This document shows, in pieces, positions 16,141-31,756 of a stretch of DNA of 64,000 bases. Under the pieces are notes generated by a model. It ran no database searches. It saw only the letters and a list, made by a program, of their open reading frames with translations, and was not told where the DNA came from. Made by a program: the position numbers and the translations under genes. Source of the DNA: Paracoccus sp. R12_2 (GTDB lineage Bacteria; Pseudomonadota; Alphaproteobacteria; Rhodobacterales; Rhodobacteraceae); contig NZ_JAGHRA010000008.1 of assembly GCF_017744015.1 (NCBI RefSeq), forward strand, positions 1 to 64,000, given 5' to 3'. Position 1 is the stretch's first letter. Every line of letters starts with the position of its first letter.

Positions 16141-16159
16141 CCGGAAAGGAAAGGACTGC

Positions 16160-17059: not shown

Positions 17060-17061
17060 TC

Positions 17062-17424
17062 ATGGCACAAGTGGAAAACTGGACTCCGAAAGAAGTCATG
17101 GCGGCGCTCGACGCGCAGAAGATCGTTTTGATCGATGTGCGCACGCCGCCCGAATACATCATGGAGCATATAGACGGCGCGTTGTTGATGCCCATGGCAT
17201 TCTTTCGCCCCGAGGCGCTGCCCACGCAGGACGGCAAGCGTATCGTTCTACACTGCGGCTCGGGCGCCCGGTCCGGAAAGATGGCCGAGATTGCCCTGAA
17301 AGCCGGACTGTCGCCACTCGCGCATATGGAGGGCGGCTTCGGCGCATGGAAGCAGGCCGGTCTGCCCTACACCGGCACCGATATGGCCACGGGTGCGCCC
17401 AAGGCGATGAATGCGGACTCATGA
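17062..17424 (+). CDS. rhodanese-like sulfurtransferase
   Basis: A 120-residue single-domain rhodanese. The substrate segment IVLIDVRTPPEYIMEHIDGALLMPM is followed by the active-site loop HCGSGARSGKMAE, with the catalytic cysteine in CGSGAR. It would transfer sulfane sulfur, passing persulfide to or from the adjacent persulfide-dioxygenase-like enzyme. Its TGA overlaps the ATG of a truncated methyltransferase. Confidence 0.88.
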   Translation: MAQVENWTPKEVMAALDAQKIVLIDVRTPPEYIMEHIDGALLMPMAFFRPEALPTQDGKRIVLHCGSGARSGKMAEIALKAGLSPLAHMEGGFGAWKQAGLPYTGTDMATGAPKAMNADS

Positions 17425-17573: not shown

Positions 17574-19694
17574 TCAGGCGCTGCAAGAGACGATGCCCGA
17601 GTCCGCGCGCGGCTGCTGAGCACCAACGCGAAGCGCATTCGCCATGACGGAAAGCGAACTGGCGGCCATCGCCAGCGCCGCGAGGTCCGGCGTCAGGTGG
17701 CCCGTCAGCAGCAGCGGCAGCAGGGCGGCGTTGTAGATCACCGCCAGGATCAGGTTCTGACGGCTGGTTCTGGCGGCGCGCCGCGACAACCGGATCAATT
17801 GGGGCAGCGCCGCAAGTCCACCGTCACCGATCACCACATCGGCGGTTTGCCTGGCTGCCGCATGCGCGCCCGCAACCGCGATCCCACAATCTCCGGCCGC
17901 CAATGCGGGAGCGTCGTTCACGCCGTCTCCGACGAACACCGTTCCCGCACCCTCGTTGCGGATCAACTCTGCCTTCTGTCGCGGCGTTTGCTGCCAGAAT
18001 ACGCTCTCGTCCGGCACACCCAGTGCCGCAGCCACTTGCCGCGTCGGCGTTGCCGCATCACCCGAGGCGATCCTGATGGACAGGCCCATGCGCGAAAGTG
18101 ACGTCATCGCGGCGGCGGCGTCGGGCAGAAGGTCGTCGGCGACGATCAGATGACCCAGCACGGCGCCATCGCGGGTGACGGTCAGTCGTGTTCCGCGACG
18201 ATCGTCGGCATCCGATCCTGTGACCCGCACGGTTCGGCCCGCGTCATCCAATCCCTCGGCATGCCGATCCGCGCGGCGCCCGCCCGCCCCCCGTTCGCCG
18301 GTCACCGCAACGATTGCGCGTGCCAGCGGATGGGTCAGGCCCGTTTCAGCAAAGGCGGCCGCTGCCACAAGGCCGTCCCGGCAAATGCCGCTGGCGGGCT
18401 CGGCGGCGATCATACGCGGCCGGCCCGCCGTCAGTGTGCCGGTCTTGTCGAGGAAGACGGTTCGCGCATGGGCCAGCTTTTCGAAGGCCTCCGGCTCGCG
18501 TATCCGATGGCCCGAACCTGCGGCAAGCTGCGAAATGCGCAGTCTCGTCAGCGGCACGGCAAGCGCCAGCGCACAAGGACACAAACCCGCCAGCACAGTC
18601 AGGCCGGTCATCAATGCCTGCTCGGTTCCAAGCCCGCGCAGCATCGCGACGATCGTCGCCGTTATTGCCAACGCCGGGATCGCGCGCGCAAGAAGCCCCG
18701 CCCAGTGTTCGGCCATGCCTCCCTCGGCGCCGTTGCGCGCGATCTCCAGCGCGATCGCACCGCCTAGCCGGTCAATCTCGCGGTCGCCGGGTTCACGATC
18801 ACTGCGTACGATAAGCCGCCTGTCCAGATTGACGCAGCCTGCTTCGATCCGGTCGCCGGGACGAACGGCGACCGACTTGCTTTCGCCAGTCAGAACTGCG
18901 CGATTCACAAGGCTGACGCCGGTCTCGATCACCCCATCTACTGTTGCCGCCTCGCCGGCATCGACGATGATCCGCGATCCGATGGGAACCTGATCCGCGG
19001 CCATGCGCCGCCGCTGGCCCAGGGTCTCGACCGTCGCGATTTCGGGTGCCGCATCCTGCATCGCCTTCAAGGCGCGGAGCGCCGAACGCCGGATCATCGT
19101 GTCGACAAGCCGGGCCAGAAGCAGAAGGGTCAAAAGCATCGTGGCCGCATCGAACCAGACCGCGACGTCGCCTTGCAGAAGCTGGACGGCGGACAGGATG
19201 AAAGCGCCAGTGACGCCCAAGGACACCAGAAGATCCATCGTCGGTTCACCCAACTGCAGCGACTTCCATCCCATCCACAGGATGCCCCGCCCGGCCCACA
19301 GGACCGGCAGCGCGAAGCCCCCCGAAGCCACGGCGATCCACCACGCCGTGTCTGGCGCAAGCTGTGTGGTGTACAGCACCAGCGCCAGGGCCATCGTCCA
19401 CATTCCTGACAGGACCGCCACCGCAAGGCGGATCCCAAGCCGGCCGAGATGCCGGTCCAGCATCGTCTCCAGTTCCTCGGGGCGGTGACGGTCGATCAGG
19501 CGATAGCCGGCACGGGCAACCTGGCCGGCAATCCTGGGTTGGCCTGTCGCGGTTTCATCCCAGTCCAACAGGGCCGAGGCGGTCAGATAATGCACCTTGG
19601 CCAGACGGATGCCGGGCTGGACAGACAGACGACGTTCCAGTCCACGTGCGCAACCGGCGCAGGCCAGACCCTCGATGGCGAATAATCGTCGCAT
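17574..19694 (-). CDS. P1B-type copper-transporting ATPase (CopA/CcoI-like)
   Basis: A 706-residue heavy-metal pump. It has an N-terminal metal-binding domain with GLACAGCARGLERRL (CxxC at residues 12-15), membrane segments carrying the transport motif GLCPCALALAVPL, the TGES loop (AVLTGESKSVAV), the phosphorylation site LDKTGTLTAG and the hinge FVGDGVNDAPALAAGD. The CPC motif indicates Cu(I) or Ag(I). Four bases after the TsdA-like gene, it ends an operon of heme-copper oxidase and cytochrome genes, so it most likely works like CcoI/FixI, moving copper across the inner membrane for assembly of the oxidase, though a detoxification role is also possible. The usual HP motif appears as GLTHPLARAIV. 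Confidence 0.9.
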   Translation of the reverse strand: MRRLFAIEGLACAGCARGLERRLSVQPGIRLAKVHYLTASALLDWDETATGQPRIAGQVARAGYRLIDRHRPEELETMLDRHLGRLGIRLAVAVLSGMWTMALALVLYTTQLAPDTAWWIAVASGGFALPVLWAGRGILWMGWKSLQLGEPTMDLLVSLGVTGAFILSAVQLLQGDVAVWFDAATMLLTLLLLARLVDTMIRRSALRALKAMQDAAPEIATVETLGQRRRMAADQVPIGSRIIVDAGEAATVDGVIETGVSLVNRAVLTGESKSVAVRPGDRIEAGCVNLDRRLIVRSDREPGDREIDRLGGAIALEIARNGAEGGMAEHWAGLLARAIPALAITATIVAMLRGLGTEQALMTGLTVLAGLCPCALALAVPLTRLRISQLAAGSGHRIREPEAFEKLAHARTVFLDKTGTLTAGRPRMIAAEPASGICRDGLVAAAAFAETGLTHPLARAIVAVTGERGAGGRRADRHAEGLDDAGRTVRVTGSDADDRRGTRLTVTRDGAVLGHLIVADDLLPDAAAAMTSLSRMGLSIRIASGDAATPTRQVAAALGVPDESVFWQQTPRQKAELIRNEGAGTVFVGDGVNDAPALAAGDCGIAVAGAHAAARQTADVVIGDGGLAALPQLIRLSRRAARTSRQNLILAVIYNAALLPLLLTGHLTPDLAALAMAASSLSVMANALRVGAQQPRADSGIVSCSA

Positions 19695-19698
19695 CCGG

Positions 19699-20742
19699 TC
19701 AGTCTTCTTCCGGAGCTTTCGCCGCCGCCGATGCCTGCATGCCCACCCCGATCAGCCTGCCATCGACGGTCTTGCCATAGAACGTTTCATCACCGTCATG
19801 GTGGGCCTTGCGCGTCTCTTCCACGCTGCCTTTCTGGCGCGGATCCTTGGGACGTTCGTGGCTGTCCAGAAAGGCAGCCACGTCCCAAGCCTGCTGATCC
19901 GTCAGCTTGCCCGGTTGCGACAGCGGCATGTTGTGCTTGACGAATGCCGCCGCCGTGTCGATCCGCGCCATGCCCGCGCCCCAATTATAGCTGTCCGCAC
20001 CCCAAAGCGGGGGAAAGACATAGCGACCGTTCAGATCCTTCTGCCCCTGTCCGTCTGGCCCATGACAGACGACGCAGTCTTCGGCGAAGACCGCCTCGCC
20101 GCGCGCCAGATCATAGCCCTGCTCTGGCTTTTCGACCTTGCCGAAGCCGCTGCCATCCAACTTCTCGTTGGTGGGCGCGCCAGTCGCAAGCCAATAGAAA
20201 TAGCTTTCCAGATCGCGATAGATGTCATCGCCATGCGGAGGTGGCCCGCCCGAAGGCGAGCCTTGGGCGTTCATCGAATAGGTAAAGCAGCCCATCACCC
20301 TGTCTTCCATCGTATTGATCTGCTTGTTCTTGCCGCGGTATTTCGGATAGGCGACCCACGCGGCCCACATCGGCGCCGACAGCGGCTGCCGACCCGAATC
20401 CAGATGGCAGTTCGAACAGGACAGACCGTTGCCGACATGATCCGAGGCATTCGTGCCGGTATTGGTGAAGATCGCCATGCCGCGCTGCACGGCGGCGCCG
20501 AATTCGTCATCGGGGATGCTGGCCGTGTCAGGAGGATGGAACAGATCGTCGCGTGGCTTCTGTGCCATCGCCGTCTTCTGCACCGGTTCGCCCGTCAGCC
20601 AAGCCGGCGCAAGGCCCAGTTCCACAACCAACGAGCCAAGGGCCACAAGCGCAAGGCCTCCGCCGGCGGCAAAGATGATATTGCGGGCCGTGTGTTTGCC
20701 ACCGCTGCTGTCGCTCTCGCGGGACTTCGGATCATTCGGCAT
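19699..20742 (-). CDS. diheme cytochrome c, TsdA (thiosulfate dehydrogenase)-like
   Basis: A 347-residue membrane-anchored periplasmic protein with one N-terminal span (about residues 20-42) and two heme c sites: CSNCH (109-113) and CVVCH (223-227). The stretch CSNCHLDSGRQPLSAPMW, PKYRGKNKQINTMEDRVMGCF is very close to the TsdA pattern, including a cysteine (Cys152) about 39 residues after the first heme, the position of the unusual Cys heme ligand in thiosulfate dehydrogenases. TsdA couples two thiosulfates to tetrathionate and gives electrons to cytochromes. It overlaps the triheme cytochrome gene by 11 bases, so it may feed the oxidase directly. Confidence 0.8.
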   Translation of the reverse strand: MPNDPKSRESDSSGGKHTARNIIFAAGGGLALVALGSLVVELGLAPAWLTGEPVQKTAMAQKPRDDLFHPPDTASIPDDEFGAAVQRGMAIFTNTGTNASDHVGNGLSCSNCHLDSGRQPLSAPMWAAWVAYPKYRGKNKQINTMEDRVMGCFTYSMNAQGSPSGGPPPHGDDIYRDLESYFYWLATGAPTNEKLDGSGFGKVEKPEQGYDLARGEAVFAEDCVVCHGPDGQGQKDLNGRYVFPPLWGADSYNWGAGMARIDTAAAFVKHNMPLSQPGKLTDQQAWDVAAFLDSHERPKDPRQKGSVEETRKAHHDGDETFYGKTVDGRLIGVGMQASAAAKAPEED

Positions 20743-21976
20743 TCGAGGTTCCTTCCTGTGCGCTGGCCGTGCGCCCAGCGGGCACGGGCGGCAGCGAGGC
20801 CAGATAATCGGCCACTGCTCGGCGATCCTGGCTGGACAGTGCCTGAGAGATTTGGCTCATCAACCCCAAGGGCGAATTCTGCCTGCCCCCGCCGGCCCAG
20901 GCTGCCAACTGGCTGGCCGTGTAGGGCGCATGCTGGGCCGCCAGCGCCGGAAAATCCGGGGCGACGCCGAACCCGGACGAGCCATGGCAGGTAAAGCAGG
21001 CTGGGACGCCCAACGACCAGTCGCCTTGCAGCGCCAGCCGCTCACCCCGTGCCAGATCCGCAGACAGGTTCGGGCTGGCGTTGCTGGTCGCACGCAACGT
21101 GGCAAAATACGCGCCCAAGGCCGCGGTCTCGGCATCGCTCAGACCGGCTGCGACAATCTGCATCGATTCGTTGTCGCGGGTGCCATCGCGGAAATCATTC
21201 AGCTGCTTGGTCAGATACTTGGCGGGCTGTCCGGCAAGGCGCGGCGTGTTTTCGCCCCCTTGGCCCAGGTCGCCGTGGCAACTGGCACAGGCCCAGACAT
21301 CGTCACGGCCTGCAAAAACCAGATCCTGCACAGTGGCCGTCATCGCATCCGCCGCCGTCGGCGCGGGATGGGGAGGTTGCGGGGGCATCGAGGTCACGAT
21401 CGTGGCCAATTCCGCGCCTCCGGCAAAGCTGCCCGCGTCGCCGACCTCATGGCGCAGATCCGCGACACGCTTCGGATCAAGTTTCGCATCGGTTTCGCCG
21501 AATGTCAGCGTGACGTAGCTGGCGATGCGCGATATCTCATCGTCGTTCAGCGCGCTGGCGAAGCTGGGCATATGCCCGTCGAAATCATCACCGCCGACCC
21601 GGATCGGCCCGTCGATGCCGCGCAGCAGGATGCGGGCGACGATTTCGGGACCGGCAGCGAGGACCTCGGACCCGGCCAAGGGCGGTACCGCGCCGCGAAG
21701 CCCCTCACCGTCCGGCTGATGGCAGGTCGAGCAGTTGGCAACGAACAGATTGCCCCCCTCGCCCTGATCGGCCGAGATTTGCACGGCGCGTTCCTCAACC
21801 CGCTCGTCTTGGGCGAGGGTCACGTCCTTGCCGGTATCGTACAGCATGAACGCCCCCCACGCGGCCAGTGCGATGGCAATCCAGTAGACCGGCATCGGAA
21901 TGCCCGAGAATTCCTCGTAGGGCTCGAAATTCTCATCGGGGCGAGGATGGTCGGACTTGCTCTTCCTGCCGAACAT
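20732..21976 (-). CDS. membrane-anchored triheme cytochrome c, possibly replacing CcoP
   Basis: A 414-residue protein with a single N-terminal span (PMPVYWIAIALAAWGAFMLY, about 27-46) and three class I heme c motifs: CSTCH (82-86), CASCH (230-234) and CFTCH (327-331). CcoP of ordinary cbb3 oxidases has two hemes and two spans; this protein has an extra heme and only one span. It lies directly after ccoO, with start and stop overlapping by one base, so it probably serves as the electron-entry subunit of this oxidase. Each domain has a downstream methionine that could be an axial ligand (for example GHMPSFASALND). Confidence 0.8.
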   Translation of the reverse strand: MFGRKSKSDHPRPDENFEPYEEFSGIPMPVYWIAIALAAWGAFMLYDTGKDVTLAQDERVEERAVQISADQGEGGNLFVANCSTCHQPDGEGLRGAVPPLAGSEVLAAGPEIVARILLRGIDGPIRVGGDDFDGHMPSFASALNDDEISRIASYVTLTFGETDAKLDPKRVADLRHEVGDAGSFAGGAELATIVTSMPPQPPHPAPTAADAMTATVQDLVFAGRDDVWACASCHGDLGQGGENTPRLAGQPAKYLTKQLNDFRDGTRDNESMQIVAAGLSDAETAALGAYFATLRATSNASPNLSADLARGERLALQGDWSLGVPACFTCHGSSGFGVAPDFPALAAQHAPYTASQLAAWAGGGRQNSPLGLMSQISQALSSQDRRAVADYLASLPPVPAGRTASAQEGTSNAE

Positions 21977-22623
21977 CAGCTGTCCCCCTCACTGGCGTTT
22001 GGATCCTCGGCGGCCGGGCCGCTTGCGTAGCCATCATCCCGCAGGGCATCGGTTGGCGACGGATATGTCCGGTCCAGCGCCCGGAGGTACGCGACCAGAT
22101 CCAGCGCGTCTCGGCGGGCAACGATCACGCCGCTTTCGGGCGCATAGGCGGGCGGCAAGGTGACAACGGTATCGCTGGGCGCGGCGCGGTCCTTTCGTTC
22201 GAACAGAAATGGATAGGCGGGCATGATCGACCAATCGAAAATGGCGCGAGGTTGATACAGATGGGTCAGGTGCCAGCCCTCGGACGGCAGGCGCGCGCCG
22301 ACGTTCAGCAGGTCCGGTCCGGTCCGCATCGTGCCCAACTGATGCGGAGCATCGAAGGCATAATCCGATGCCACGGATGGACGTCCCCAGCCACGTTCGC
22401 CATCGGGGGCCTGATCGGGTGATCTGGGTTGCTGGCTATGGCAATAGACGCATCCCATTGCGACATAGACGTCGCGGCCGTTCTGCTCGGCCTGGGTATA
22501 ATTGCGCAGCCCTTCCGGAACGTTGCGGGCGTCGATCTGGATGCCTGGTGCGATGACCAGCATCAGCGTCGCAAATGCCAGAATGGCCAAGGCGAGAATC
22601 GAGAGAGGAAGATACCGGTTCAT
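21976..22623 (-). CDS. ccoO: cbb3-type cytochrome c oxidase, monoheme subunit CcoO-like
   Basis: A 215-residue subunit with an N-terminal membrane anchor (residues 5-27) and one heme c site CVYCHSQQ (58-62), preceded by YTQAEQNGRDVYVAMG, the standard CcoO/FixO context. The following segment (GRPSVASDYAFDAPHQLGTMRTGPDL) is characteristic. It passes electrons from the soluble or larger cytochrome to the catalytic subunit. Its ATG overlaps the ccoN stop. Confidence 0.88.
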   Translation of the reverse strand: MNRYLPLSILALAILAFATLMLVIAPGIQIDARNVPEGLRNYTQAEQNGRDVYVAMGCVYCHSQQPRSPDQAPDGERGWGRPSVASDYAFDAPHQLGTMRTGPDLLNVGARLPSEGWHLTHLYQPRAIFDWSIMPAYPFLFERKDRAAPSDTVVTLPPAYAPESGVIVARRDALDLVAYLRALDRTYPSPTDALRDDGYASGPAAEDPNASEGDS

Positions 22624-24176
22624 TCCGCAGCCACCGTCGATGCAGATTCATCCCGCGTCATGAAGGCCAGTCCCAGCAAGTTCAGCGCGAAGACCAGATG
22701 ACCGAGCGTCATCAATGTCCCGCCGACGCTTCGGGCCTGAAGATAGGGCAGCACGACCTCGACGCTGTCGCGGAACGGTCGCGTGGCATCCAACATCGCC
22801 AGTCCCTGCAGCACACCGCCAATCGACAGCGCAAGGAAGTAGATCGCGAAGCCGATCACGACCAGCCAGAAGTGCAGCTTCAGCAACCCAGGCCACGGAA
22901 AGACCCGACCCGTCGCGCGCGGCAGGATCTGGTAGATCGCGCCGAACATCACCAGCGACACGAAGGCATAGGCCCCCAGATGGGCGTGGCCGACAGTATA
23001 TTGGGTGAAATGGGTGATCGTGTTGACTGACCTCAACGCCTCGATCGAGCCCTGGAAGGACGCCAGCGTGTACATGACGGCACCGAACGAGATGAAGCGC
23101 AGCGGAATGGATTCCCTCAGCGCCCAGAGGTTCATCGCGACGGTGACGTGCTGGTTGATCGCAACCGCGATCACGGGGATGAACATCATCACCGAATGCA
23201 CGACCGACAATGTCACCAACCACGTCGGCACCGGACCTCCGATCAGGTGATGAATTCCGACCTGGCTGTAGAACAGCGCCAGCCCCCAGAATCCCAGCAA
23301 CGACACGGCATAGCTGTAGATGGGCTTTCCGATGATCTTCGGAATGAAGTAATAGGCCGCGCCCACGCCAAGCGGCGTCAGCCAGAGGCCCAGCACGTTG
23401 TGCGCGAACCACCAGTTGATCGTCGCCTCCTGCGCACCCCCATAAAGCGGCAGGTTGGCGACCACGAACAGCACCGGGAACCACAGGATCGCAGCCAGGA
23501 AATACCAGCCCGAGACATAGATGTGATGGACCTGCCGAGCCCGCGTTGTCTGGATCAGCGGCGCGATGAAACAGGCCCCTCCGGCGGCCAGAAAAATGTC
23601 GACCTGCCACGGGATCTCCAGCCATTCCTCACCGTCGGTCCAACCGCGTGCGATGGCCACCGCTCCCAGGGTGACGCCGATGTTCCATAGCAACGCGCCC
23701 CATATAATCAGCTGCGGACGACGCGAGGGCGTATGGAAGATGCGCGGGATGATCCACATGACCGAAGCAACGCCCGCCTGCGACAGCCAGCCGTAGATCA
23801 CCAGGTTCAGATGCAGCGTTCGCATCCTTCCGAAGGTCAATGGCGCTGCGAAATCCAGCCAGTCCGGCCAGTGAAGCTTTAATGACGCGATCAGTCCAAA
23901 GACCGAACCCGCCACAAGCCAAAAGGTCGCCGCAGCGATCAGGACCAGCACCGGCCTCGCCGAGATCTGGTCGATGCCGGCCTGCACAGGGTCGAACCTG
24001 TGTGGGTGGGCTTCCTCACCAGCATCGCCGCGGACTTCACCGGCTTCAAACACGGTTTCCGCGTCGTGCTGGTCGATGGTGATCTGCCGGTTGGCGATCG
24101 CCCAGATCAGAAAGGCCAGCGCCAAAAGAGAGACAACAAAGCTAAGCGCCAGCAGCAGCCCCAGCGTGACGGGCAT
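22620..24176 (-). CDS. ccoN: cbb3-type cytochrome c oxidase, catalytic subunit I (CcoN-like)
   Basis: A 518-residue heme-copper oxidase subunit with about 12 membrane spans. The start is ATG 24176, seven bases after GGGAGG; a TTG two codons upstream is less likely. Heme and copper ligands are visible in RTLHLNLVIYGWLSQ, SGWYFLAA..., NWWFAHNVLGLW, FYSQVGIHHLIGGPVPTW (CuB histidine pair and the cross-linked tyrosine position) and HFTQYTVGHAHLGAYAF. It reduces oxygen to water with proton pumping. A typical CcoP or CcoQ is missing next to it. It heads an overlapping five-gene operon ending in a copper ATPase. Confidence 0.9.
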   Translation of the reverse strand: MPVTLGLLLALSFVVSLLALAFLIWAIANRQITIDQHDAETVFEAGEVRGDAGEEAHPHRFDPVQAGIDQISARPVLVLIAAATFWLVAGSVFGLIASLKLHWPDWLDFAAPLTFGRMRTLHLNLVIYGWLSQAGVASVMWIIPRIFHTPSRRPQLIIWGALLWNIGVTLGAVAIARGWTDGEEWLEIPWQVDIFLAAGGACFIAPLIQTTRARQVHHIYVSGWYFLAAILWFPVLFVVANLPLYGGAQEATINWWFAHNVLGLWLTPLGVGAAYYFIPKIIGKPIYSYAVSLLGFWGLALFYSQVGIHHLIGGPVPTWLVTLSVVHSVMMFIPVIAVAINQHVTVAMNLWALRESIPLRFISFGAVMYTLASFQGSIEALRSVNTITHFTQYTVGHAHLGAYAFVSLVMFGAIYQILPRATGRVFPWPGLLKLHFWLVVIGFAIYFLALSIGGVLQGLAMLDATRPFRDSVEVVLPYLQARSVGGTLMTLGHLVFALNLLGLAFMTRDESASTVAAE

Positions 24177-24243: not shown

Positions 24244-24260
24244 CTTAAACCAACCTTAAG
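24244..24260. promoter_or_regulatory. candidate response-regulator box upstream of ccoN (CTTAA repeat, 11-bp spacing)
   Basis: CTTAAACCAACCTTAAG contains two CTTAA units starting 11 bases apart. It shares this layout with the 17-bp boxes at 25536-25552 and 29690-29706. It ends about 68 bases upstream of the ccoN start, a promoter-proximal place. Part of it lies in the 12-base palindrome AACCTTAAGGTT (24252-24263). Direct repeats one helical turn apart are typical for OmpR-family regulators. Confidence 0.5.
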
Positions 24261-24285
24261 GTTCCCCCGAGTCGACCAAGTTTTC

Positions 24286-24501
24286 TTAGACGACGCGCAA
24301 TCGCCCCAGCATCTTACGCTTCGGGCGGTCACGGTCTGCAAACCACCTACGCAAAGCCTTGATCGCGGTGACGCCAACCTCACACCGATCCTTGCCGTAA
24401 CGCGTCAGCACACCCTGCATGGTGATGAAGGCGCAGCGATAGGGGGTGTCTTGATCCAGTGGGCCACCATCACGCACGAACGTTAATTCGATCCTCCGCA
24501 T
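24286..24501 (-). CDS. small hypothetical protein
   Basis: A 71-residue frame from ATG 24501, with GGAGAA seven bases upstream. It reads MRRIELTFVRDGGPLDQDT at the start, then YRCAFITMQGVLTRYGKDRCEVGVTAIKALRRWFADRD. It vaguely recalls the short DUF6968-type proteins, but I cannot confirm this. A longer form starting at 24591 lacks a ribosome binding site. It ends 25 bases before the ccoN regulatory box and is on the same strand as ccoN. Confidence 0.4.
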   Translation of the reverse strand: MRRIELTFVRDGGPLDQDTPYRCAFITMQGVLTRYGKDRCEVGVTAIKALRRWFADRDRPKRKMLGRLRVV

Positions 24502-24915
24502 GGGGGGATTCTCCAACTTGGCGTTCAGGGTAAGGCGGCGAAAACGCCTTCCCATCGTAGGCCGAATGCCGTTGGAAGATTTCGTCGGCATGGTCTTGCC
24601 GAGAAGGGGCTCGGCCCATCCGATGACTTCGATTCGGTAGCCGGTGGTTTCGACGATGAGGGTCGGGGCAAGGCGTGGCGGGTCATCCCGTCAAAGGATG
24701 GCAAGTGGTCGCCAGAAGGGGTGGTTCAGCATTCCCTGCAAACCCAGCCATCCTCCGCAGGGTCGGCCCCCTCGCGTCCCTAATTCGCGATGCGGTTCAA
24801 GGAAGCCCTGGCTGCCATTCAACCGGATCAAGGTCAGCCGGGTCATGCAGCAGGTCGTTCCAGGTCTGACCGGCGGGGTGGCAACGAGACGCACCCTGCC
24901 GGTCTCGATTCGGCG
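24502..24915. other. gene-free stretch
   Basis: I found no reading frame with a plausible start or family resemblance here. The L,D-transpeptidase gene ends at 24916 on the complementary strand, so this stretch may include its terminator, but no strong hairpin with a T-run is visible. Confidence 0.4.
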
Positions 24916-25470
24916 TCAGATCACACGCACCTGCGTGCCGACCGGACAGAGGCCGAAAAGCTCTTCTATCTTCTCATTGTAAAGGCCGATGCAGCCATCT
25001 GAAGACAATCGCCCGATCTTGCGCGTGTCATGGGTGCCGTGAATCAGATAGGCGGGCCAGCCCAGATACATCGCGTGGGTACCCAACGGATTGTCGGGCC
25101 CTGGACCCACCGGCTTCCAGTCGGGATAGCGCTCCATCTGCGACGCGGTGGGCGTCCAGCTTGGGCCGACTTTCTTGCGCACGATTTCCGTGTAGCCGCG
25201 CTTGGTCAGTTCGTCGGATATGGGAACCGAGGTCGGATAGGTGCGGTGGATCGTGTCGTCGGCGTTCCAAAAATGCAAGGCACGCGATGTGGTGTCGGCG
25301 ACGATGGCGCCCTTGCCAAGCGACTCGAAATGATCCTGCCACCGTTGCATCGTGAAACTGCTGATATTGTGACGCGGTGTCGTCTGTGCCCGCACCAGAC
25401 CGGGCATCGCCAGCCCGCCCGCGGCGAGAATGCCCAACCCCAGGGCGCGGCGACGGTTGATGTCGCTCAT
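24916..25470 (-). CDS. L,D-transpeptidase (YkuD domain), Tat-type signal
   Basis: A 184-residue periplasmic enzyme that would make 3-3 crosslinks in peptidoglycan or attach proteins to it. The N-terminus MSDINRRRALGLGILAAGGLAMPGLVRA has a twin-arginine-like signal. The catalytic motif is HGTHDTRKIGRLSSDGCIGLYN, with the nucleophilic cysteine in SDGC. The preceding GPDNPLGTHAMYLGWPAYLIHG is a standard YkuD segment. A CTTAAG box lies 66 bases upstream. It is transcribed in the same direction as the DsbA/Ldt/TlpA/DsbD operon. Confidence 0.88.
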   Translation of the reverse strand: MSDINRRRALGLGILAAGGLAMPGLVRAQTTPRHNISSFTMQRWQDHFESLGKGAIVADTTSRALHFWNADDTIHRTYPTSVPISDELTKRGYTEIVRKKVGPSWTPTASQMERYPDWKPVGPGPDNPLGTHAMYLGWPAYLIHGTHDTRKIGRLSSDGCIGLYNEKIEELFGLCPVGTQVRVI

Positions 25471-25535
25471 TTCACTGCTCCTTTTCTCATGATGCGGGGA
25501 AGTTGGCCCCCGCTTCGCTTGAATGCGACGTCATG

Positions 25536-25552
25536 CTTAAGCCCGGCTTAAG
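25536..25552. promoter_or_regulatory. candidate response-regulator box upstream of an L,D-transpeptidase
   Basis: CTTAAGCCCGGCTTAAG is an almost perfect palindrome made of two CTTAAG units 11 bases apart. It is the exact reverse complement of the box at 29690-29706 in front of dsbD and the response regulator. It overlaps the stop codon of the DsbA-like gene and sits upstream of the L,D-transpeptidase start. Confidence 0.6.
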
Positions 25553-26174
25553 ACGCCTCGCGCGCTTGGGAAATCGCGCCGCGCAGGGTCGCCGCGTCCA
25601 GTGCGCCGGGATAGATCGTGCGACCGATGATGAAGGCGGGCGTACCGCGCAGGCCCAACTGCGCGGCCTGTGCCGCGTTGCGCGCCAGAAACCCGTCCCA
25701 CTTGTCCCGGTCCGCGCGATATGCGTCCTGCGCCGCCGCGACGTCGATCCCGGCATCACCCAGAACCTTGTCGATCTGCTCGTTGCTCAGCTTGGCCTCG
25801 GTCGCCATCAGGGCGGAATTCGCCTTGTGATACTCGCCCATCCCGGTCGCGCCCAGGACAAGTTGGCTGGCATGGACCGACGGTGCGCCGAAGATCGGCC
25901 AGTCCTTCATCACCAGGCGGATATTGCCGTCCTCGGCCACCACATCGGTCAGCGTGGGATGGTTCCTTTTGCAGAACGGACATTGATAGTCGAAATATTC
26001 CACGATGGTCACGTCGCCCTCGGCATTACCCAGAACCGGACCGTCGGGATCGTGCAGCACGTCGTCCACGGTCAGTTCATCCGCGCGCGCGCGCAGGCTC
26101 ATGGCGCCGCCGGCAAGGCCAAGCAGCCCCAGGCCGGCACCTGCGCCCAGCATCATGCGTCGATGAATGTTCAT
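25548..26174 (-). CDS. DsbA-family thiol:disulfide protein (thioredoxin fold)
   Basis: A 208-residue exported protein with an N-terminal signal (NIHRRMMLGAGAGLGLLGLAGGAMSLRA, possibly Tat). The active site is YFDYQCPFCKRNHPTL (CPFC), the cis-proline loop is LRGTPAFIIG, and the intervening helical insertion matches the Com1/BdbD/DsbA group. It oxidises or isomerises cysteine pairs in the periplasm. It overlaps the neighbouring L,D-transpeptidase gene by four bases in the order TlpA-Ldt-DsbA. Confidence 0.88.
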   Translation of the reverse strand: MNIHRRMMLGAGAGLGLLGLAGGAMSLRARADELTVDDVLHDPDGPVLGNAEGDVTIVEYFDYQCPFCKRNHPTLTDVVAEDGNIRLVMKDWPIFGAPSVHASQLVLGATGMGEYHKANSALMATEAKLSNEQIDKVLGDAGIDVAAAQDAYRADRDKWDGFLARNAAQAAQLGLRGTPAFIIGRTIYPGALDAATLRGAISQAREAS

Positions 26175-27013
26175 GCGTTGTCTCCTTCTGTCCAGGATGA
26201 AGAGGGCGTTGCAGTCGCAGTGGCTGCAGGCCCCGAGATCGACACGGGCGCGCCAGCGTTGGTCGGAGTGGCCGCCGTCGGCGCAGCGGTCCCCGCCGCC
26301 GGCAGCGGTTGTCCGGGCGGTACCGTGCCCTTGCCCGATTCAGCCTTCGTTAACACGATGACCTTGGTCATGCTGTCGGTCTGATCGGCCAAATGGATGA
26401 TGTCCTGATTGAACAGCCGAATGCAGCCGGCCGAGGTTGCCTGACCGATCGAGGACGGGTCCATCGTGCCGTGGATGCGGTAATAGGTGTCGCCCCGATT
26501 ATTGTGCAGATACAGCGCCCGCGCACCCAGCGGGTTGTCCAGCCCGCCTTCGACCCCATCGGCCACGGGGCCATAGAGGTCGGGATTGTCGGCCAGCATG
26601 TTGTCGGTCGGCATCCATCTGGGCCAGTCGCGCTGATAAGGGATATGCGCCTCGCCGGTGAAGCCGTATCCCGCCGCACCTACGGCGACGGCATAGCGCA
26701 TCGCCTTGTCGTTCGGCTGCACATGATAGAGGTAACGCGCATAGGGATCGACAATGATCGTGCCGGGCTTCTGATCGGTCCAGTATTCCACCTGCTGACG
26801 GGCCTTGTCCTCGGACAGATACTGCATGGGCACGGCGTCGATCTGATGGCCATTGTCGTTCAGTGCGCCATACTTGGCCGCCGTCGCGGAACTGACGGCG
26901 GGTTGCTGTGGGGCCTCTGGCACATCCGGCCGGGGGTTCTGGTTCGTCTCACAGGCCGTCAGCGACAGGATCGCGGCGATTGCCAGGGCGGCTGTTCTTA
27001 GTGTCATCGTCAT
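26171..27013 (-). CDS. L,D-transpeptidase (YkuD domain), lipoprotein
   Basis: A 280-residue protein whose signal ends in a lipobox (ILSLTACETN), so it is probably anchored to a membrane by lipidated Cys. The YkuD catalytic segment reads YRIHGTMDPSSIGQATSAGCIRLFN, with the nucleophile in SAGC. A low-complexity, Ala/Pro-rich tail of about 50 residues follows. Its start overlaps the TlpA-like stop codon. It is the second L,D-transpeptidase of this region. Confidence 0.88.
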   Translation of the reverse strand: MTMTLRTAALAIAAILSLTACETNQNPRPDVPEAPQQPAVSSATAAKYGALNDNGHQIDAVPMQYLSEDKARQQVEYWTDQKPGTIIVDPYARYLYHVQPNDKAMRYAVAVGAAGYGFTGEAHIPYQRDWPRWMPTDNMLADNPDLYGPVADGVEGGLDNPLGARALYLHNNRGDTYYRIHGTMDPSSIGQATSAGCIRLFNQDIIHLADQTDSMTKVIVLTKAESGKGTVPPGQPLPAAGTAAPTAATPTNAGAPVSISGPAATATATPSSSWTEGDNA

Positions 27014-27819
27014 TCCTTCATGGCCTTCTCGATCATCTCGCTCAGCGCGGCGCGGGACACTTCGCCCGTTTGCGCCGCGACCAGGTTGCCACCGGCATCA
27101 AAGACAAGCGTCGATGGCAGGCCGATCGCGTCCAGCCGACCCATCAGCCGCTGGCGCGGGTCCAGCACCATGCCGTCGAAAGGCAGGTTCTCGCCCTGCA
27201 GGAAGTCCATCACCTGATCTGCGCGTTCGCCCTGATTGGCGAAGACGAAATCCACGCCGGGGCTGCCCGAGGCCAGATCCAACATCATCGGCATCTCGCG
27301 ACGGCAGGGCGGGCACCATGTCGCCCAGAGGTTCAGGACCACGGGCTTGCCGCGGCCCGCCAGTTGTTCGGTCCCGGCATCTAGGCCGATCAGATCCATT
27401 GCGGGCAGTTCGACCTGCGGGCGCGGCACTGCGATGCCGATCGCCTGTTGCGTCAGAAAGGCAAGCACCGCGCCGACGATCAGCGGCATCACAGCGGCGC
27501 GTCGCTGACGCAGCAACGCCGCGGCGAAAACTGCCATGCCGGCGACCCAGCCAGCGCGGGGCGAAAAGCCGCCCTGCCACAGTTTCAGCACGTCCTGCGG
27601 GTGGGACGCGAACTCGTCCCAGTTTCCCAGCACAAAGCCGAACCGCGCACCGACGATCCAGGCCAGCAGCGCGTAGCCCGCCCATCGCGCGGCATCCGTT
27701 CCCGGCCGTCGCTGCACCCGCGCCGTGATCTCGGCCGTCAGCAGGAACACAATGATTGCGGCGATCGCGGCAAGGCGTGCGCCGTCAAAGACCAGCGGCC
27801 CGATCGAGACGGTATTCAT
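27010..27819 (-). CDS. Lgt-like membrane domain fused to TlpA-type thioredoxin
   Basis: A 269-residue protein. The first ~130 residues have several hydrophobic spans (LAAIAAIIVFLLTAEITARV, ARWAGYALLAWIVGARFGFVLGNWDEF) that resemble the start of prolipoprotein diacylglyceryl transferase, although too short for a full enzyme. A periplasmic thioredoxin domain follows with LNLWATWCPPCRREMPMM (CPPC) and cis-proline IGLPSTLVFD. TlpA proteins reduce disulfides in the periplasm. The ATG overlaps the dsbD stop codon, so DsbD is the likely electron donor. Confidence 0.82.
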   Translation of the reverse strand: MNTVSIGPLVFDGARLAAIAAIIVFLLTAEITARVQRRPGTDAARWAGYALLAWIVGARFGFVLGNWDEFASHPQDVLKLWQGGFSPRAGWVAGMAVFAAALLRQRRAAVMPLIVGAVLAFLTQQAIGIAVPRPQVELPAMDLIGLDAGTEQLAGRGKPVVLNLWATWCPPCRREMPMMLDLASGSPGVDFVFANQGERADQVMDFLQGENLPFDGMVLDPRQRLMGRLDAIGLPSTLVFDAGGNLVAAQTGEVSRAALSEMIEKAMKE

Positions 27820-29666
27820 TGGCGCACCTTCCCGATCGAGGCCAGCATGTCTTCGGACCCCACCTCGCCGATCAGGCGGCTGCCAGACGCCTCGGACCGG
27901 GCGGCGTTCAGGAACACCATCGTCGGCGGACCAGCGGCTGCAAGCCGCCCCATCAGGGCCTGCGCCTCGGCGTTGAAATCGCTGACATCGATCTTGATCG
28001 GTGCCAGATCTTCCAGTGCCGCATTGACGGTCGGATCGGACAGCGGCCCGCGTTCGATGCTGCGACAGGTGACACACCAATCGGCGGTGACATAGACCAG
28101 CGCCGGTTTTCCTTCGGCCGATGCCAGCGCCTGATCCAGTTCATCGCTGGTCGTGACGCGGGCAAAGCTGAGGTCGGCGGCTTCGCTGACCGGGCCATTC
28201 CGGCTGGCCAGCGGCGCCAGCGGACGCAGCGGATCATCCGCACCCAGCGCAGCGCCGACGCCCTGCACCATGCCAGTGAAGGCCAGCATCATCCCCAGCG
28301 CGGCTGACAACCTGACACGAAAGGGCGATCCGCTGTCCAACCGGTCCAGCGCCCCCAGAAACACTCCGGTGGCAACCAGCAGCGCGGCCCACAGGGCCAG
28401 CATCGCGGGACCGGGCAGAACGCGCCCGGCCAGCCAGACCGCGAATCCCAGGAAGATGACGCCGAAGGCCTGCTTGACGCGCTGCATCCAGATGCCGCTT
28501 CGCGGCAGGATCCGCGGGCCGAATGCCCCCACCGCCAGCAGCGGCAGGCCCTGCCCCAGACCCAGGGCGAACAACGCGACCGCACCCAGAAGGACATCGC
28601 CCGTCTGCGCGATATAGATCAGCGCGCCCGCCAGCGGTGCGGTCACGCAAGGCCCCACGATCAGCGCCGAGGTAAATCCCAGACCGGCCGCGCCCGCCAC
28701 CGATCCGCGCCGGCCGGCGACCTGCCCCAGCCTGCGCTGCAATGTTGAAGGCATCTGCAGTTCGTAAAGGCCGAACATCGACAGGGCCAGCGCGACGAAC
28801 AGGATCGCCACCACCCCGATCGCCCATGGCGATTGCAAAGCCACCTGCAGATTGGCGCCCGACCATGCCGCGACGACGCCAAGCGCACCAAAGGCCGATG
28901 CCATCGCCAGAACATAGGCGCCGGTCAGCACCAGCCCGCGCCGCGCCGTCAGAGGTTCGCCTTGACCTGCCAGCATGCCCACGACGATCGGTACCATCGG
29001 CAGGACGCAGGGCGTGAAGGCCAGCAACAACCCGAAACCCAGAAATCCAAGGATCACGAGGGCATTCCCGCCGCGCAGGGCAAGTCCTTCGATCAGACCG
29101 TCGTCCTGGGCCAGTGTCAGATCGCCCCGCGCTGGGCCACTGTCCTGCGTCTCGCCGCCGGGTGACCATGCCGCATCGTCGGCCTGGCTGAAAGCGTTCG
29201 CGGCACCCTCGGGGGACGGCTCGCCGCCTGCGGATAGTCGCGTCACCGTGCCGTCAGTGCCCAGCCGCGCCATCTGCGGCGCGTAGCAGATGCCGTCCTG
29301 CTGGCAGCCCTGCCAGGTCAGCGTCACCGGCCCGTTCTGCGCGGGTAGGGTCGCCGCGACATCGTCGCGAAAGATCTCTTCGGGGCCGAAATACGGATCG
29401 TCGTGGCGTTCACCCCTGGGCAAATCCAGGGGGATCGCCGCGCCGTCCGCTGTTTCTGCGACGAACTTTCCCCGATAAAGGTAATACCCATCGGCGATCT
29501 GCCAGGACAGGGTTTGCGACCCATCATCAGACGGGGTGACATTCAGCGCAAAGGCGTCTTCAGGCTGCAAGGGCTGCGATGCTGCTTGCGCGGCGGCAAG
29601 AAGCCCGACCAGAGCGAGACAGGCCAGCAGCCCCGCGCGAAAAATGGGAAACAATCTCGTCATCAT
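27816..29666 (-). CDS. dsbD: thiol:disulfide interchange protein DsbD
   Basis: A 616-residue inner-membrane electron carrier with three parts: a periplasmic N-terminal domain with the cysteine pair WQGCQQDGICYAPQ, a membrane domain with eight or so spans (including TPCVLPMVPIVVG, GPCVTAPLAG) and a C-terminal thioredoxin domain with VTADWCVTCRSIE. It moves electrons from cytoplasmic thioredoxin to periplasmic partners such as the TlpA-like protein encoded next. It is divergent from the response regulator gene, with a CTTAAG box 24 bases upstream of its start. Confidence 0.92.
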   Translation of the reverse strand: MMTRLFPIFRAGLLACLALVGLLAAAQAASQPLQPEDAFALNVTPSDDGSQTLSWQIADGYYLYRGKFVAETADGAAIPLDLPRGERHDDPYFGPEEIFRDDVAATLPAQNGPVTLTWQGCQQDGICYAPQMARLGTDGTVTRLSAGGEPSPEGAANAFSQADDAAWSPGGETQDSGPARGDLTLAQDDGLIEGLALRGGNALVILGFLGFGLLLAFTPCVLPMVPIVVGMLAGQGEPLTARRGLVLTGAYVLAMASAFGALGVVAAWSGANLQVALQSPWAIGVVAILFVALALSMFGLYELQMPSTLQRRLGQVAGRRGSVAGAAGLGFTSALIVGPCVTAPLAGALIYIAQTGDVLLGAVALFALGLGQGLPLLAVGAFGPRILPRSGIWMQRVKQAFGVIFLGFAVWLAGRVLPGPAMLALWAALLVATGVFLGALDRLDSGSPFRVRLSAALGMMLAFTGMVQGVGAALGADDPLRPLAPLASRNGPVSEAADLSFARVTTSDELDQALASAEGKPALVYVTADWCVTCRSIERGPLSDPTVNAALEDLAPIKIDVSDFNAEAQALMGRLAAAGPPTMVFLNAARSEASGSRLIGEVGSEDMLASIGKVRQ

Positions 29667-29689
29667 GGAACAACCGCTAAAGACGCCTC

Positions 29690-29706
29690 CTTAAGCCGGG
29701 CTTAAG
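29690..29706. promoter_or_regulatory. candidate response-regulator box between dsbD and the two-component genes
   Basis: CTTAAGCCGGGCTTAAG, identical as a reverse complement to 25536-25552, lies in the 90-base divergent region. It would allow the regulator at 29757 to control dsbD and itself. Confidence 0.6.
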
Positions 29707-29756
29707 TTCGACCGACGAAAGCGTGAGCGTGACTGGAAAAGGAAAAGCCCGATAAG

Positions 29757-30425
29757 ATGCGATTGCTGATCGTTGAAGATGACCCCGTCCTGTCGGACGG
29801 CCTGTGCGTCGGCCTTGGCATGGCCGGATTCACGACCGATCCGGTTACGACACTGGACGATGCCCGCGTTGCGCTGCAGACCGGCGGTTTCGGTGGGGTG
29901 GTGCTGGACATCATGCTGCCTGACGGGTCCGGGCTGGAACTTCTGGCCGAACTGCGCGGCCGCGGCGACCGGATCCCGGTGTTGCTGCTGACCGCGCGCG
30001 ACCGGGTGCGGGACAGGGTCTCGGGGTTGGATGCGGGCGCCGACGATTACCTGGGCAAGCCCTTCGATCTTGACGAACTGGCCGCACGGCTGCGCGCCAT
30101 GTTGCGCCGTCACGAAGGCCGCGCCGCCGGTCTGATCGCCTGGAACGGACTCAGCCTGGACCCGGCAGCGCAGACCGGTCGCCTGGAAGACCGGCAACTG
30201 CATTTCTCGCGCCGAGAATTCGCCATTCTTCACGCGCTGATCGAACATCCCGGCCATATCCTGTCGAAATCTCAGCTGGAGGAACGCCTTTACGGCTGGC
30301 AGGAAGAGGTCGAAAGCAACACGGTCGAGGTCCATATCCACCATCTTCGGGCAAAGCTGGGGCGCGATTTCATCCGCACCGTTCGCGGGCTGGGCTATCG
30401 TCTGGCGGACGAAGCAGGCGCCTGA
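29757..30425 (+). CDS. OmpR/PhoB-family response regulator
   Basis: A 222-residue regulator. The receiver domain begins MRLLIVEDDPVLSDGL, the phospho-acceptor is Asp51 in VVLDIMLPDGSG, and LLLTARDRVRDRVSGLDAGADDYLGKPFDLDEL carries the conserved Thr and Lys. The C-terminal winged helix contains FSRREFAILHALIEHPGHILSKSQLEERLYG and VEVHIHHLRAKLG...IRTVRGLGYRL. Its stop overlaps the start of the histidine kinase (ATGA). Nearby CTTAAG boxes are its probable targets. Confidence 0.93.
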   Translation: MRLLIVEDDPVLSDGLCVGLGMAGFTTDPVTTLDDARVALQTGGFGGVVLDIMLPDGSGLELLAELRGRGDRIPVLLLTARDRVRDRVSGLDAGADDYLGKPFDLDELAARLRAMLRRHEGRAAGLIAWNGLSLDPAAQTGRLEDRQLHFSRREFAILHALIEHPGHILSKSQLEERLYGWQEEVESNTVEVHIHHLRAKLGRDFIRTVRGLGYRLADEAGA

Positions 30426-31756
30426 TGTCGATCAAGGTTCGCCTTTTCCTGATCCTTGCCCTGGCGACTGGCCTTGTCTGGCTGTCGGCCGTCCTTTGGA
30501 TCGAGGGATCGACGCGGTCCCAGGTCGAACAGGTGCTGGACGCGCGGCTTTCGGAATCCGCCAACATGGTCAGTTCGCTGATCTCGGATCACCGGATCGA
30601 GGTTGGCGATGCCACCCGCCGGCCCGCCACGGTCCCATTGCTGGGCAGCGGCGATTATTCGCGGCAGCTATCCTGCCAGATCTGGTCCCTGCGGGGCGAT
30701 CTGGTCGGCGCCTCGTCGGGCGCTCCGAAATCACGACTGGGTGCGAAAGACGGTTTCAGCACCTCTGTGATCGACGGCGAAAGCTGGCGCGTCTATTCGG
30801 TTCGCAATGATGATTTGGGCGTCACGGTCATGGTCGGGGACCGCATGACGATGCGCGACAACCTTGTTCATGACGTCGTGGCAGGACTTCTATGGCCTGC
30901 CCTGGTGATCCTGCCGCTGCTGGCCGCGCTGATCTGGGTCAGCGTCGGGCGTGGACTTGCCCCGCTGGAAGGTCTTGAGGCGGCGCTCCGGTCGCGAAGC
31001 CCGTCCGATCTCAGCCCTCTGCCCACCGGGCCGGCACCGCGCGAAATCCGGCCTGTACGCCGCGCGCTGAACAGCCTGTTTTCGCAACTTGAGCGCGTGC
31101 GCAGGACCGAGCGCGACTTTACCGCGTTCGCCGCCCATGAGTTGAAGACGCCATTGGCGGGGCTGCGCACGCAGGCACAGATCGCGCGCCAGGCAAAAGA
31201 CGATGCGACCCGCGGCAAGGCGCTGGCCGCGATCGAATTGTCGGTGGACCGGACCGACCGAATGGTGCGCCAGCTTCTTGACCTGGCAACCGTCGAGGGC
31301 GAGGAGACGCCGACCGAACAGGTCGTTCTGACGGAGCTCTGCGCCGAGATTTCGACGGCCCTGCGGCAGCCCATAGAAGCCCGTGCGGTGCAGCTGTCCT
31401 GCGACATTCCCGCCGGACTGGGGCTTTTCACCAACCGCTTTCTTCTGTTCGCCGCCCTTCGCAATATCGCCGAGAACGCCGTTCTCGCATCGCCGCAGAG
31501 CGGAACTGTCCGTCTTGCCGCGCAACAAGAGTCAGGCCGGGTGGTCTTTCGGGTGACCGATGAAGGGCCAGGCATCGATCCGGACGACCTGGCCCGCGTG
31601 ACCGACCGCTTTTTCCGCGGCCGCGCAACATCTTTCCAAGGCAGCGGCCTCGGCCTCGCGATCGCCGTCGCGGCCGCGAACAGAATGAACGGGACATTGA
31701 CGTTTCCGGCCTCCAAGAAAGGTCAGGCCGTGGAGTTAGCTGTCGCATTGAACTGA
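30425..31756 (+). CDS. sensor histidine kinase (QseC/TctE-like)
   Basis: A 443-residue kinase with a first span at residues 7-27, a periplasmic sensor of about 130 residues with one visible cysteine, a second span (LLWPALVILPLLAALIWVSVG), the H-box FTAFAAHELKTPLAGLRTQ and the ATP-binding N and G boxes (ALRNIAENAVLAS, VTDEGPGID, GSGLGLAIAV). It phosphorylates the adjoining response regulator. The signal is unknown; the gene set it neighbours suggests redox, copper or envelope stress. Confidence 0.9.
   Translation: MSIKVRLFLILALATGLVWLSAVLWIEGSTRSQVEQVLDARLSESANMVSSLISDHRIEVGDATRRPATVPLLGSGDYSRQLSCQIWSLRGDLVGASSGAPKSRLGAKDGFSTSVIDGESWRVYSVRNDDLGVTVMVGDRMTMRDNLVHDVVAGLLWPALVILPLLAALIWVSVGRGLAPLEGLEAALRSRSPSDLSPLPTGPAPREIRPVRRALNSLFSQLERVRRTERDFTAFAAHELKTPLAGLRTQAQIARQAKDDATRGKALAAIELSVDRTDRMVRQLLDLATVEGEETPTEQVVLTELCAEISTALRQPIEARAVQLSCDIPAGLGLFTNRFLLFAALRNIAENAVLASPQSGTVRLAAQQESGRVVFRVTDEGPGIDPDDLARVTDRFFRGRATSFQGSGLGLAIAVAAANRMNGTLTFPASKKGQAVELAVALN

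Follow-up and report, generated by a model that had tools for sequence, protein, structure and literature searches.

The window analyzed here, a stretch of 64,000 nucleotides from Paracoccus sp. R12_2 (contig NZ_JAGHRA010000008.1, positions 1 to 64,000), carries a two-component system, two operons of envelope redox, cell wall and respiratory genes, and three 17-base boxes of the form CTTAAG-N5-CTTAAG, which we analyze as candidate operators of that system. The response regulator (29757..30425) and the adjoining sensor histidine kinase (30425..31756; QseC-like with a 2CSK_N sensor domain, according to profile matches and an AlphaFold model) lie on the plus strand, divergent from a minus-strand operon. 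This operon comprises, in order, dsbD (27816..29666), encoding a protein-disulfide reductase (NCBIfam PRK00293, 492 bits against a cut-off of 330; Pfam DsbD_TM and DsbD_N); a TlpA-like thioredoxin-fold protein with a CPPC motif (27010..27819; Pfam Redoxin/AhpC-TSA above cut-off), whose hydrophobic N-terminal part gives an LGT-like Pfam match; L,D-transpeptidase 1 (26171..27013; Pfam YkuD), a predicted lipoprotein with cysteines at positions 21 and 197, likely the lipobox and catalytic residues, and no others; a DsbA-like thioredoxin-fold protein with a CPFC motif (25548..26174; Pfam DSBA); and L,D-transpeptidase 2 (24916..25470; Pfam YkuD; cysteines 160 and 175). A second minus-strand operon downstream encodes a ccoN-type heme-copper oxidase subunit I (22620..24176; Pfam COX1; TIGR00780 at 265 bits, below the cut-off of 583), a FixO/CcoO-type mono-heme subunit (21976..22623; Pfam FixO), a c-type cytochrome with several cytochrome c domains (20732..21976; three stretches of Pfam Cytochrom_C), a TsdA/SoxA-like cytochrome c (19699..20742; Pfam SoxA-TsdA_cyt-c and Cytochrom_C) and a heavy-metal (copper-type) P-type ATPase (17574..19694; TIGR01525 at 348 bits, over cut-off; the copper model TIGR01511 at 333 bits, below its cut-off of 397). 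Adjoining the oxidase operon, at 16085-17424, are genes for a metallo-beta-lactamase-fold protein (possible persulfide dioxygenase) and then a rhodanese.

Direct reading of the window located all three boxes, for which no strand is assigned, where the initial annotation of this DNA had reported them. Box 1 (CTTAAGCCGGGCTTAAG on the plus strand, 29690..29706) occupies the divergent promoter region, 24 bp from the start of dsbD and 51 bp from that of the regulator. Box 2 (CTTAAGCCCGGCTTAAG, 25536..25552), an equally exact match, lies 66 bp before L,D-transpeptidase 2, and box 3 (CTTAAACCAACCTTAAG, 24244..24260), one mismatch away from CTTAAG-N5-CTTAAG, lies 68 bp before the likely ATG of ccoN (24176). 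Box 1 is the exact reverse complement of box 2, as had been claimed, and the described placement of box 2 before an L,D-transpeptidase and of box 1 between dsbD and the regulator is correct, although it had been overlooked that box 2 overlaps the stop codon of the DsbA-like gene (TAA, minus strand, 25548-25550). Boxes 1 and 2 are both odd palindromes, with 8-base arms around one central base; each differs from its own reverse complement at that base only, and each therefore matches both strands.

The motif is rare in this genome. A scan of 4,070,181 bases in 51 contigs returned two exact and one one-mismatch instances of CTTAAG-N5-CTTAAG, all three within this 5.5 kb, and not the hundreds of random sites that would have spoken against the reading of the initial annotation. 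A further 12 sites carry two mismatches, for a total of 15 at up to two mismatches against 120 for the reversed pattern, of which the whole-genome scan found no exact instance. Four places carry the shorter form TTAAG-N6-TTAAG, and three of these lie at this locus; its reversed-pattern control is found at two. The exact motif is expected 0.05 times per genome from the window base composition, and the 17-mer, allowing up to three mismatches, is expected 0.05 times in the window from shuffles. Genome rarity, window shuffles and the scans of ortholog-bearing genomes presented below rule out chance as the origin of the boxes.

Across genomes, the box follows the regulator. Eighty relatives of the regulator were fetched for locus comparison, and those with at least 58.5 % identity, representing 47 distinct genes including extra copies, were taken as orthologous. 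A box with up to one mismatch stands within 200 bp upstream of 40 of these 47 genes (36 exact, 4 with one mismatch), compared to 5 of 89 more distant regulators; the best upstream box has two mismatches in three of the remaining orthologs, and four have no good box. Whole-genome scans of 24 named ortholog-bearing genomes, with totals taken as sums of the forward columns, yielded 58 exact boxes distributed over 22 of the 24 genomes, against 5 instances of the reversed pattern. In a sample of 295 family genomes, where the regulator was called at 63 % identity or more and the next relatives reach at most 53 %, the exact box occurs in 18 genomes, the regulator in 16 and both in 14 (Fisher p 1e-18, uncorrected for phylogeny). 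That is, the exact box is present in 14 of 16 genomes with the regulator and in 4 of 279 without it, whereas the reversed pattern, found in 66 of the 295 genomes by hand count, shows no link to the regulator (3 of 16 with it, 63 of 279 without). The boxes are hence kept in related genomes carrying the two-component system and are rare in family members that lack it, the opposite of the non-conservation that the initial annotation had named as refuting its reading.

The genes behind the boxes form a consistent set. Boxes were tabulated against genes in the window and in the fetched loci L007-L028, L045, L062, L211-L224, L226, L228 and L229-L246, omitting L225 (the same stretch as L010), L227 (a 10-base stretch) and the 3-kb loci from the pattern search. 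Among 94 boxes with up to one mismatch, 72 adjoin genes of the module (response regulator, DsbD, DsbA, TlpA, the two L,D-transpeptidases or CcoN), a proportion that is not a genome-wide rate because the loci were partly picked around the regulator. Counting a divergent box for both of its genes, these boxes precede the response regulator in 42 cases, DsbD in 17, L,D-transpeptidase 2 in 15, L,D-transpeptidase 1 and DsbA in 10 each, and CcoN and TlpA in 4 each; boxes before L,D-transpeptidase 2 orthologs recur in several genomes, for instance in L007 (one mismatch), L008, L239 and L243. Within 9.5 kb of the regulator-kinase pair, 39 neighbourhoods contain an L,D-transpeptidase in 31 cases, a DsbA-like protein in 25, DsbD in 19 and TlpA in 13. 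Nine plasmid records carry the kinase; of the six examined, five have at least one box and four an exact one. On three plasmids the box before dsbG (L251:13563, L255:14359, L252:15045; two exact, one with one mismatch) ends 38 bp upstream of the gene.

Several loci depart from this arrangement in ways that we record separately. Single boxes also stand before genes for a methyl-accepting chemotaxis protein, an RTX protein and, in L216, a SoxB-like 5'-nucleotidase; SoxB-like 5'-nucleotidase-domain genes are found near a box at L008:11473 and L216:11508, and the one in L008 is divergent from ccoN, with the box common to both. Bradyrhizobium elkanii WSM2783 (L015, L221, L222, L223, L228) has extra boxes off module genes, several with the spacer TGGAA/TTCCA, that are perhaps a repeat family. 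On a Roseovarius indicus plasmid (L253) the annotation splits both the dsbD region and the kinase region in two, and boxes with one mismatch or fewer are absent; this module looks like a decaying copy.

The boxes share an operator and promoter geometry. The 72 module boxes contain 37 different spacers, so that the box is not merely copied DNA, and the spacers prefer S-C-W-G-S, with C at position 2 and G at position 4 in 81 % each (strand-symmetrised count). Alignment of the promoters used 99 box-to-gene pairs, or 93 after dropping near-identical ones. An A is present at +12 past the box in 63 of these 93 promoters (68 %), whereas no count among 5000 shuffles exceeded 33; T at +2 (62 %) and G at +4/+5 (52-54 %) also recur downstream. 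Of 43 one-sided boxes, 32 have the A at +12 towards the called gene, and 28 two-sided boxes have it on both sides in 10, on one side in 15 and on neither in 3. In the PhoB-type arrangement the -10 element lies about 10 bp downstream of the box. The aligned promoters conform to this class II geometry, with the single base A at +12 standing out, and this base fits the -11 A of a putative -10 hexamer located 10 bp past the box. CtrA promoters of Rhodobacter sphaeroides are described as having an invariant -11 A, with one site common to two divergent promoters (PMC6180460). Applying the position rule derived from the 93 pairs, -10 hexamers are predicted at 29717..29722 on the plus strand for the regulator (A at +12, position 29718) and at 29674..29679 on the minus strand for dsbD (A at +12, position 29678), whose start codon is at +24.

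This proximity to the start codon recurs. An in-frame open ATG is found at +23/+24 in 11 of 21 dsbD/tlpA upstream regions, each with the A at +12: before dsbD in the window (29666-29690), L008, L009, L229, L233, L235, L236 and L244, and before tlpA in L014, L214 and L246. A twelfth ATG at the +24 position, in L237, is out of frame, and among the 11 the gene caller chose a later in-frame start in L235 and L236 and an earlier one in L246. An ATG at this distance places the predicted transcription start at or beside the start codon, which suggests that the dsbD and tlpA mRNAs are leaderless.

Several lines of evidence bear on the family of the regulator and on its type of DNA recognition. Its Pfam domains (Response_reg, Trans_reg_C) and those of the adjacent kinase (HisKA, HATPase_c, 2CSK_N) identify an OmpR/PhoB-family system. 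The nearest full-length solved structures in the Protein Data Bank (PDB) are PmrA/BasR (8jo2, 4s04), and its DNA-binding domain is best matched by that of CarR (9yfa), from the BqsRS/CarSR system of Pseudomonas aeruginosa, and then by PmrA; we take CarR and BqsR to be the same protein. The top NCBIfam models for the regulator are PmrA and QseB, but both scores fall under their cut-offs, ruling out full PmrA or QseB identity. The boxes have the form of a PmrA/BqsR-type operator, with CTTAAG-type half-sites at an 11-bp period (5-bp spacer). The PmrA box has CTTAAG/XTTAAT half-sites separated by a 5-bp spacer and bound head-to-tail (PMC3973317), and most of the base-contact residues described for PmrA (PMC4660055) are kept here: all 42 orthologs retain N188, V192, H195 and R210 and have Ser in place of T187, and position 196 varies (16 K, 15 H, 9 N, 2 R). 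Unlike PmrA/PmrB (BasRS), however, the named module genes are not lipid A genes. The boxes reported here agree in sequence and spacing with the described BqsR operator, TTAAG-N6-TTAAG; the 6-bp spacer of that operator is strict, inversion of its upstream pentamer abolished activity, and the downstream pentamer of the bqs promoter overlaps the -35 element (PMC4682146). In an operator of this type, a pentamer spacing of 5 or 7 is expected to abolish function. In P. aeruginosa, BqsR is associated with 432 sites at up to two pentamer mismatches and with a ferrous-iron response (PMC4682146), in contrast to the four exact TTAAG-N6-TTAAG places in this genome and a regulon of thiol enzymes and transpeptidases. 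From these comparisons, the regulator appears to work like PmrA/BqsR while being neither a PmrA nor a QseB equivalog. A betaproteobacterial relative of the regulator has three overlapping boxes in 11-bp register directly upstream (L042:2302-2340), resembling the multi-pentamer promoters of BqsR (PMC4682146).

The kinase provides a candidate for the sensory residue. Cys84 (codon 30674..30676, plus strand; motif QLSCQIW) is predicted to be periplasmic from hydropathy alone, since it falls between hydrophobic stretches at residues ~1-28 and ~147-181. An AlphaFold model of the kinase (mean pLDDT 83.8, pTM 0.54) shows strands between two long helices and sets Cys84 on strand 83-88 of the sensor domain. 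In a tblastn comparison over all loci, all 53 distinct kinases with at least 41 % identity carry Cys at this position, whereas the 22 below that value never do and have mostly Phe (12) or Tyr (7). A first alignment had given 39 of 39 orthologs against 0 of 29 relatives, the number of orthologs being limited to 39 by loci without a complete kinase prediction, and Cys84 is the sole cysteine within the first 150 residues in 37 of those 39; alignment A1 contains 23 kinases, from the window and 22 of the 24 named loci. A predicted extracytoplasmic cysteine that is invariant among orthologs, alongside a regulon made up of thiol reductases and enzymes that depend on cysteine, suggests that the kinase is a thiol or metal sensor acting through Cys84.

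Considered jointly, these results lead us to read the boxes, with a probability of roughly 0.85, as operators of the PmrA/BqsR(CarR)-type regulator at 29757, which would control an autoregulated envelope-thiol stress regulon. The box itself, its association with the regulator, the target set, the -10 geometry and the invariance of Cys84 all emerge from comparison among genomes. The initial annotation had already proposed one regulon joining a heme-copper oxidase, a copper ATPase, a TsdA-like cytochrome, DsbD/TlpA and two L,D-transpeptidases; the comparative evidence supports such a union of thiol-repair, wall and oxidase genes, to which the DsbA gene, autoregulation, the PmrA/BqsR box type and the kinase cysteine, all missed at that point, should be added.

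We infer binding, activation and signal from this evidence, and the proposed mechanism runs as follows. Envelope thiol stress would alter Cys84, leading the kinase to phosphorylate the regulator, a dimer of which would occupy both CTTAAG half-sites, spaced 11 bp apart, next to the -35 region and turn on transcription in class II fashion, with RNA polymerase recruited to either side of box 1. One box could work in both directions because CTTAAG contains the TTAAG pentamer as well as its reverse complement; box 1 may thus serve two divergent promoters, driving dsbD-tlpA-ldt-dsbA-ldt and the regulator-kinase operon itself, and thereby making the system autoregulated. Box 2 would supply L,D-transpeptidase 2 with a separate promoter, and box 3 would bring the operon of the ccoN-type oxidase, cytochromes and metal ATPase into the regulon. 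The core of the regulon would then consist of periplasmic thiol maintenance and cysteine-dependent L,D-transpeptidases: DsbD would carry electrons out to TlpA and to DsbA/DsbG-type proteins, and these would reduce oxidised thiols, keep the transpeptidases active by restoring their catalytic cysteines, and perhaps also reset Cys84. The likely signal is envelope thiol damage or modification, whether by an oxidant, copper or reactive sulfur, and it is perhaps read by Cys84; a title on copper inhibition of L,D-transpeptidases is cited in the reference list of PMC12729407. A more specific version, which we advance tentatively and hold to be somewhat less probable than an even chance, is that the kinase senses thiol stress in the periplasm directly: its one unpaired Cys84 would become oxidised, persulfidated or metal-bound under stress, and the kinase would then switch on a DsbD-TlpA-DsbA/DsbG relay that repairs both the kinase and the L,D-transpeptidases, a closed loop travelling as a mobile operon with its own operator.

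A number of observations weigh against this interpretation of the boxes. Four of the 47 ortholog genes have no upstream box of their own (three or more mismatches), one of which (in G091) is the second gene behind a boxed L,D-transpeptidase 2; two of the 16 family genomes with the regulator (G205, G272) have no exact box; and four family genomes have a box without the regulator, with no module genes in the 2.7-3.0 kb around those boxes. Within the family the reversed pattern outnumbers the box (66 vs 18 of 295 genomes), so it is the association, and not raw frequency, that carries the argument. An even sample of 385 class genomes showed no association between box and regulator. The exact box occurs in 36 of those genomes, which we read as chance hits in putatively AT-richer genomes, and the class-wide signal is missing because only two sampled genomes (G000 and G306, the latter with a one-mismatch box and no exact one) have a regulator at 60 % identity or more. 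For 22 of the 94 tabulated boxes no adjoining module gene was scored; 15 of these belong to a single Bradyrhizobium genome, and another, in L026, actually lies 34 bp before a regulator missed by the gene caller. In 17 of 43 one-sided boxes the A at +12 also appears on the side away from the called gene, and it is weak before dsbA (3 of 10) and absent before ccoN in this window. A ccoN locus in G254 has no box within three mismatches. Finally, the regulator scores 229.2 bits against the PmrA equivalog cut-off of 330 and 215.9 bits against the QseB cut-off of 345.

Alternative readings of the same data differ widely in how well they survive. The one that fares best concerns the signal, which would be sulfide or sulfite (reactive sulfur) instead of thiol oxidation, the thiol enzymes and the oxidase then serving sulfur oxidation. 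Clusters of blh-bigR-yeeE-tauE-dsbG adjoin the module on three of the six examined plasmids (L251, L252, L255), BLH/YeeE families recur in 7-9 of 39 neighbourhoods, and these nearby sulfide-detoxification genes leave reactive sulfur as a possible signal; the metallo-beta-lactamase/rhodanese pair, the TsdA/SoxA-like cytochrome inside the oxidase operon and the boxed SoxB-like genes of L216 and L008 point in the same direction. However, the BLH family is absent from 30 of the 39 neighbourhoods, the three blh plasmids have a box before dsbG and none before blh, the transpeptidases do not fit sulfur oxidation, and the sulfur genes beside the module may simply co-travel on stress islands. We consider this reading rather unlikely.

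A narrower alternative accepts the boxes before dsbD, the regulator and L,D-transpeptidase 2 and treats the ccoN box as a chance near-match, with the oxidase otherwise controlled. The ccoN box is indeed the sole imperfect one of the three and the one without an A at +12, and the boxless G254 locus is what such a reading would expect. Yet exact boxes stand 98, 106 and 102 bp before ccoN in L008, L232 and L240, giving support in three other genomes to the earlier claim that the regulon reaches ccoN, and the four family genomes, out of 295, that have the ccoN-type oxidase (called at E up to 1e-190) all belong to the 16 with the regulator (p 6e-6). Three of these four genomes, plus L008, have a box 68-106 bp before ccoN, so that four of the five oxidase loci examined are boxed; the link between oxidase and regulator, as judged by these comparisons, seems good but not universal, and a chance match before ccoN is improbable.

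Given the two perfect palindromes, the boxes might also be RNA hairpins or the site of a symmetric-dimer repressor. Box 2 lies at the 3' end of dsbA, and with its flanks folds at -17.4 kcal/mol, against -7.7 kcal/mol for box 1; the RNA stem across box 2, computed over positions 25520-25570, may have some part in mRNA processing. No U-run follows that stem, which rules out an intrinsic terminator there, just 20 of the 74 exact boxes are palindromes once the central base is disregarded, and the A at a fixed +12 and the upstream placement fit a promoter operator rather than a hairpin, making this reading very improbable. Least credible of all are CtrA sites: the spacing of all three boxes can, on inspection, also be read as TTAA-N7-TTAA, the CtrA full site described for R. 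sphaeroides (PMC6180460), and CtrA is encoded in this genome (G000), but co-occurrence rules out CtrA as the owner of the box, whose presence does not track it (CtrA exceeds its curated cut-off in 267 of 295 family genomes, or 271 at E up to 1e-60, against 18 with an exact box, 14 of which carry the PmrA-type regulator), the targets are thiol and wall genes, many adjoining the regulator, and the outer C and G of the candidate half-sites are kept in 96-97 % of module boxes, a retention that is largely by construction because boxes were picked at up to one mismatch.

Read as operators of the PmrA/BqsR-type regulator, the boxes define a system with partial counterparts elsewhere. The Cpx system controls dsbA, and CpxAR differs from the system presented here in regulator branch, motif and regulon size. 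The DsbD-DsbG genes of Escherichia coli lie apart from one another and have no known dedicated two-component system in common, whereas here they form one operon with a box and a kinase. The DsbG clients identified by Depuydt in 2009 reportedly include L,D-transpeptidases. A relay similar to the one proposed here has been described in E. coli, where DsbG controls how lone cysteines are sulfenylated and DsbD in turn holds DsbG in the reduced state (PMC4460558). CpxAR shares with our system the coupling of an L,D-transpeptidase (LdtD) to envelope stress (PMC4791840). CenKR of R. sphaeroides is likewise an OmpR-family system of an alphaproteobacterium, and the targets predicted for it include a putative L,D-transpeptidase, but its motif is TGA-N8-TGA, it is essential and its envelope regulon is broad (PMC9275681). 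A narrow search of the open-licence literature found no description of this system, operon or box in alphaproteobacteria.

What is new here is the regulon and the sensor cysteine, the box type being already known. To our knowledge, bacterial sensing of thiol oxidation beyond the inner membrane is poorly known, and this locus offers a compact candidate for it, with one kinase whose single periplasmic cysteine does not vary, one short operator, and targets reminiscent of the known relay for single-cysteine repair together with cysteine-dependent wall enzymes. The role of C84 can be tested with a single point mutant. The motif CTTAAGSCWGSCTTAAG with an A at +12 may be used to annotate the regulon in other genomes, and some alphaproteobacterial L,D-transpeptidases would gain a specific candidate regulator.

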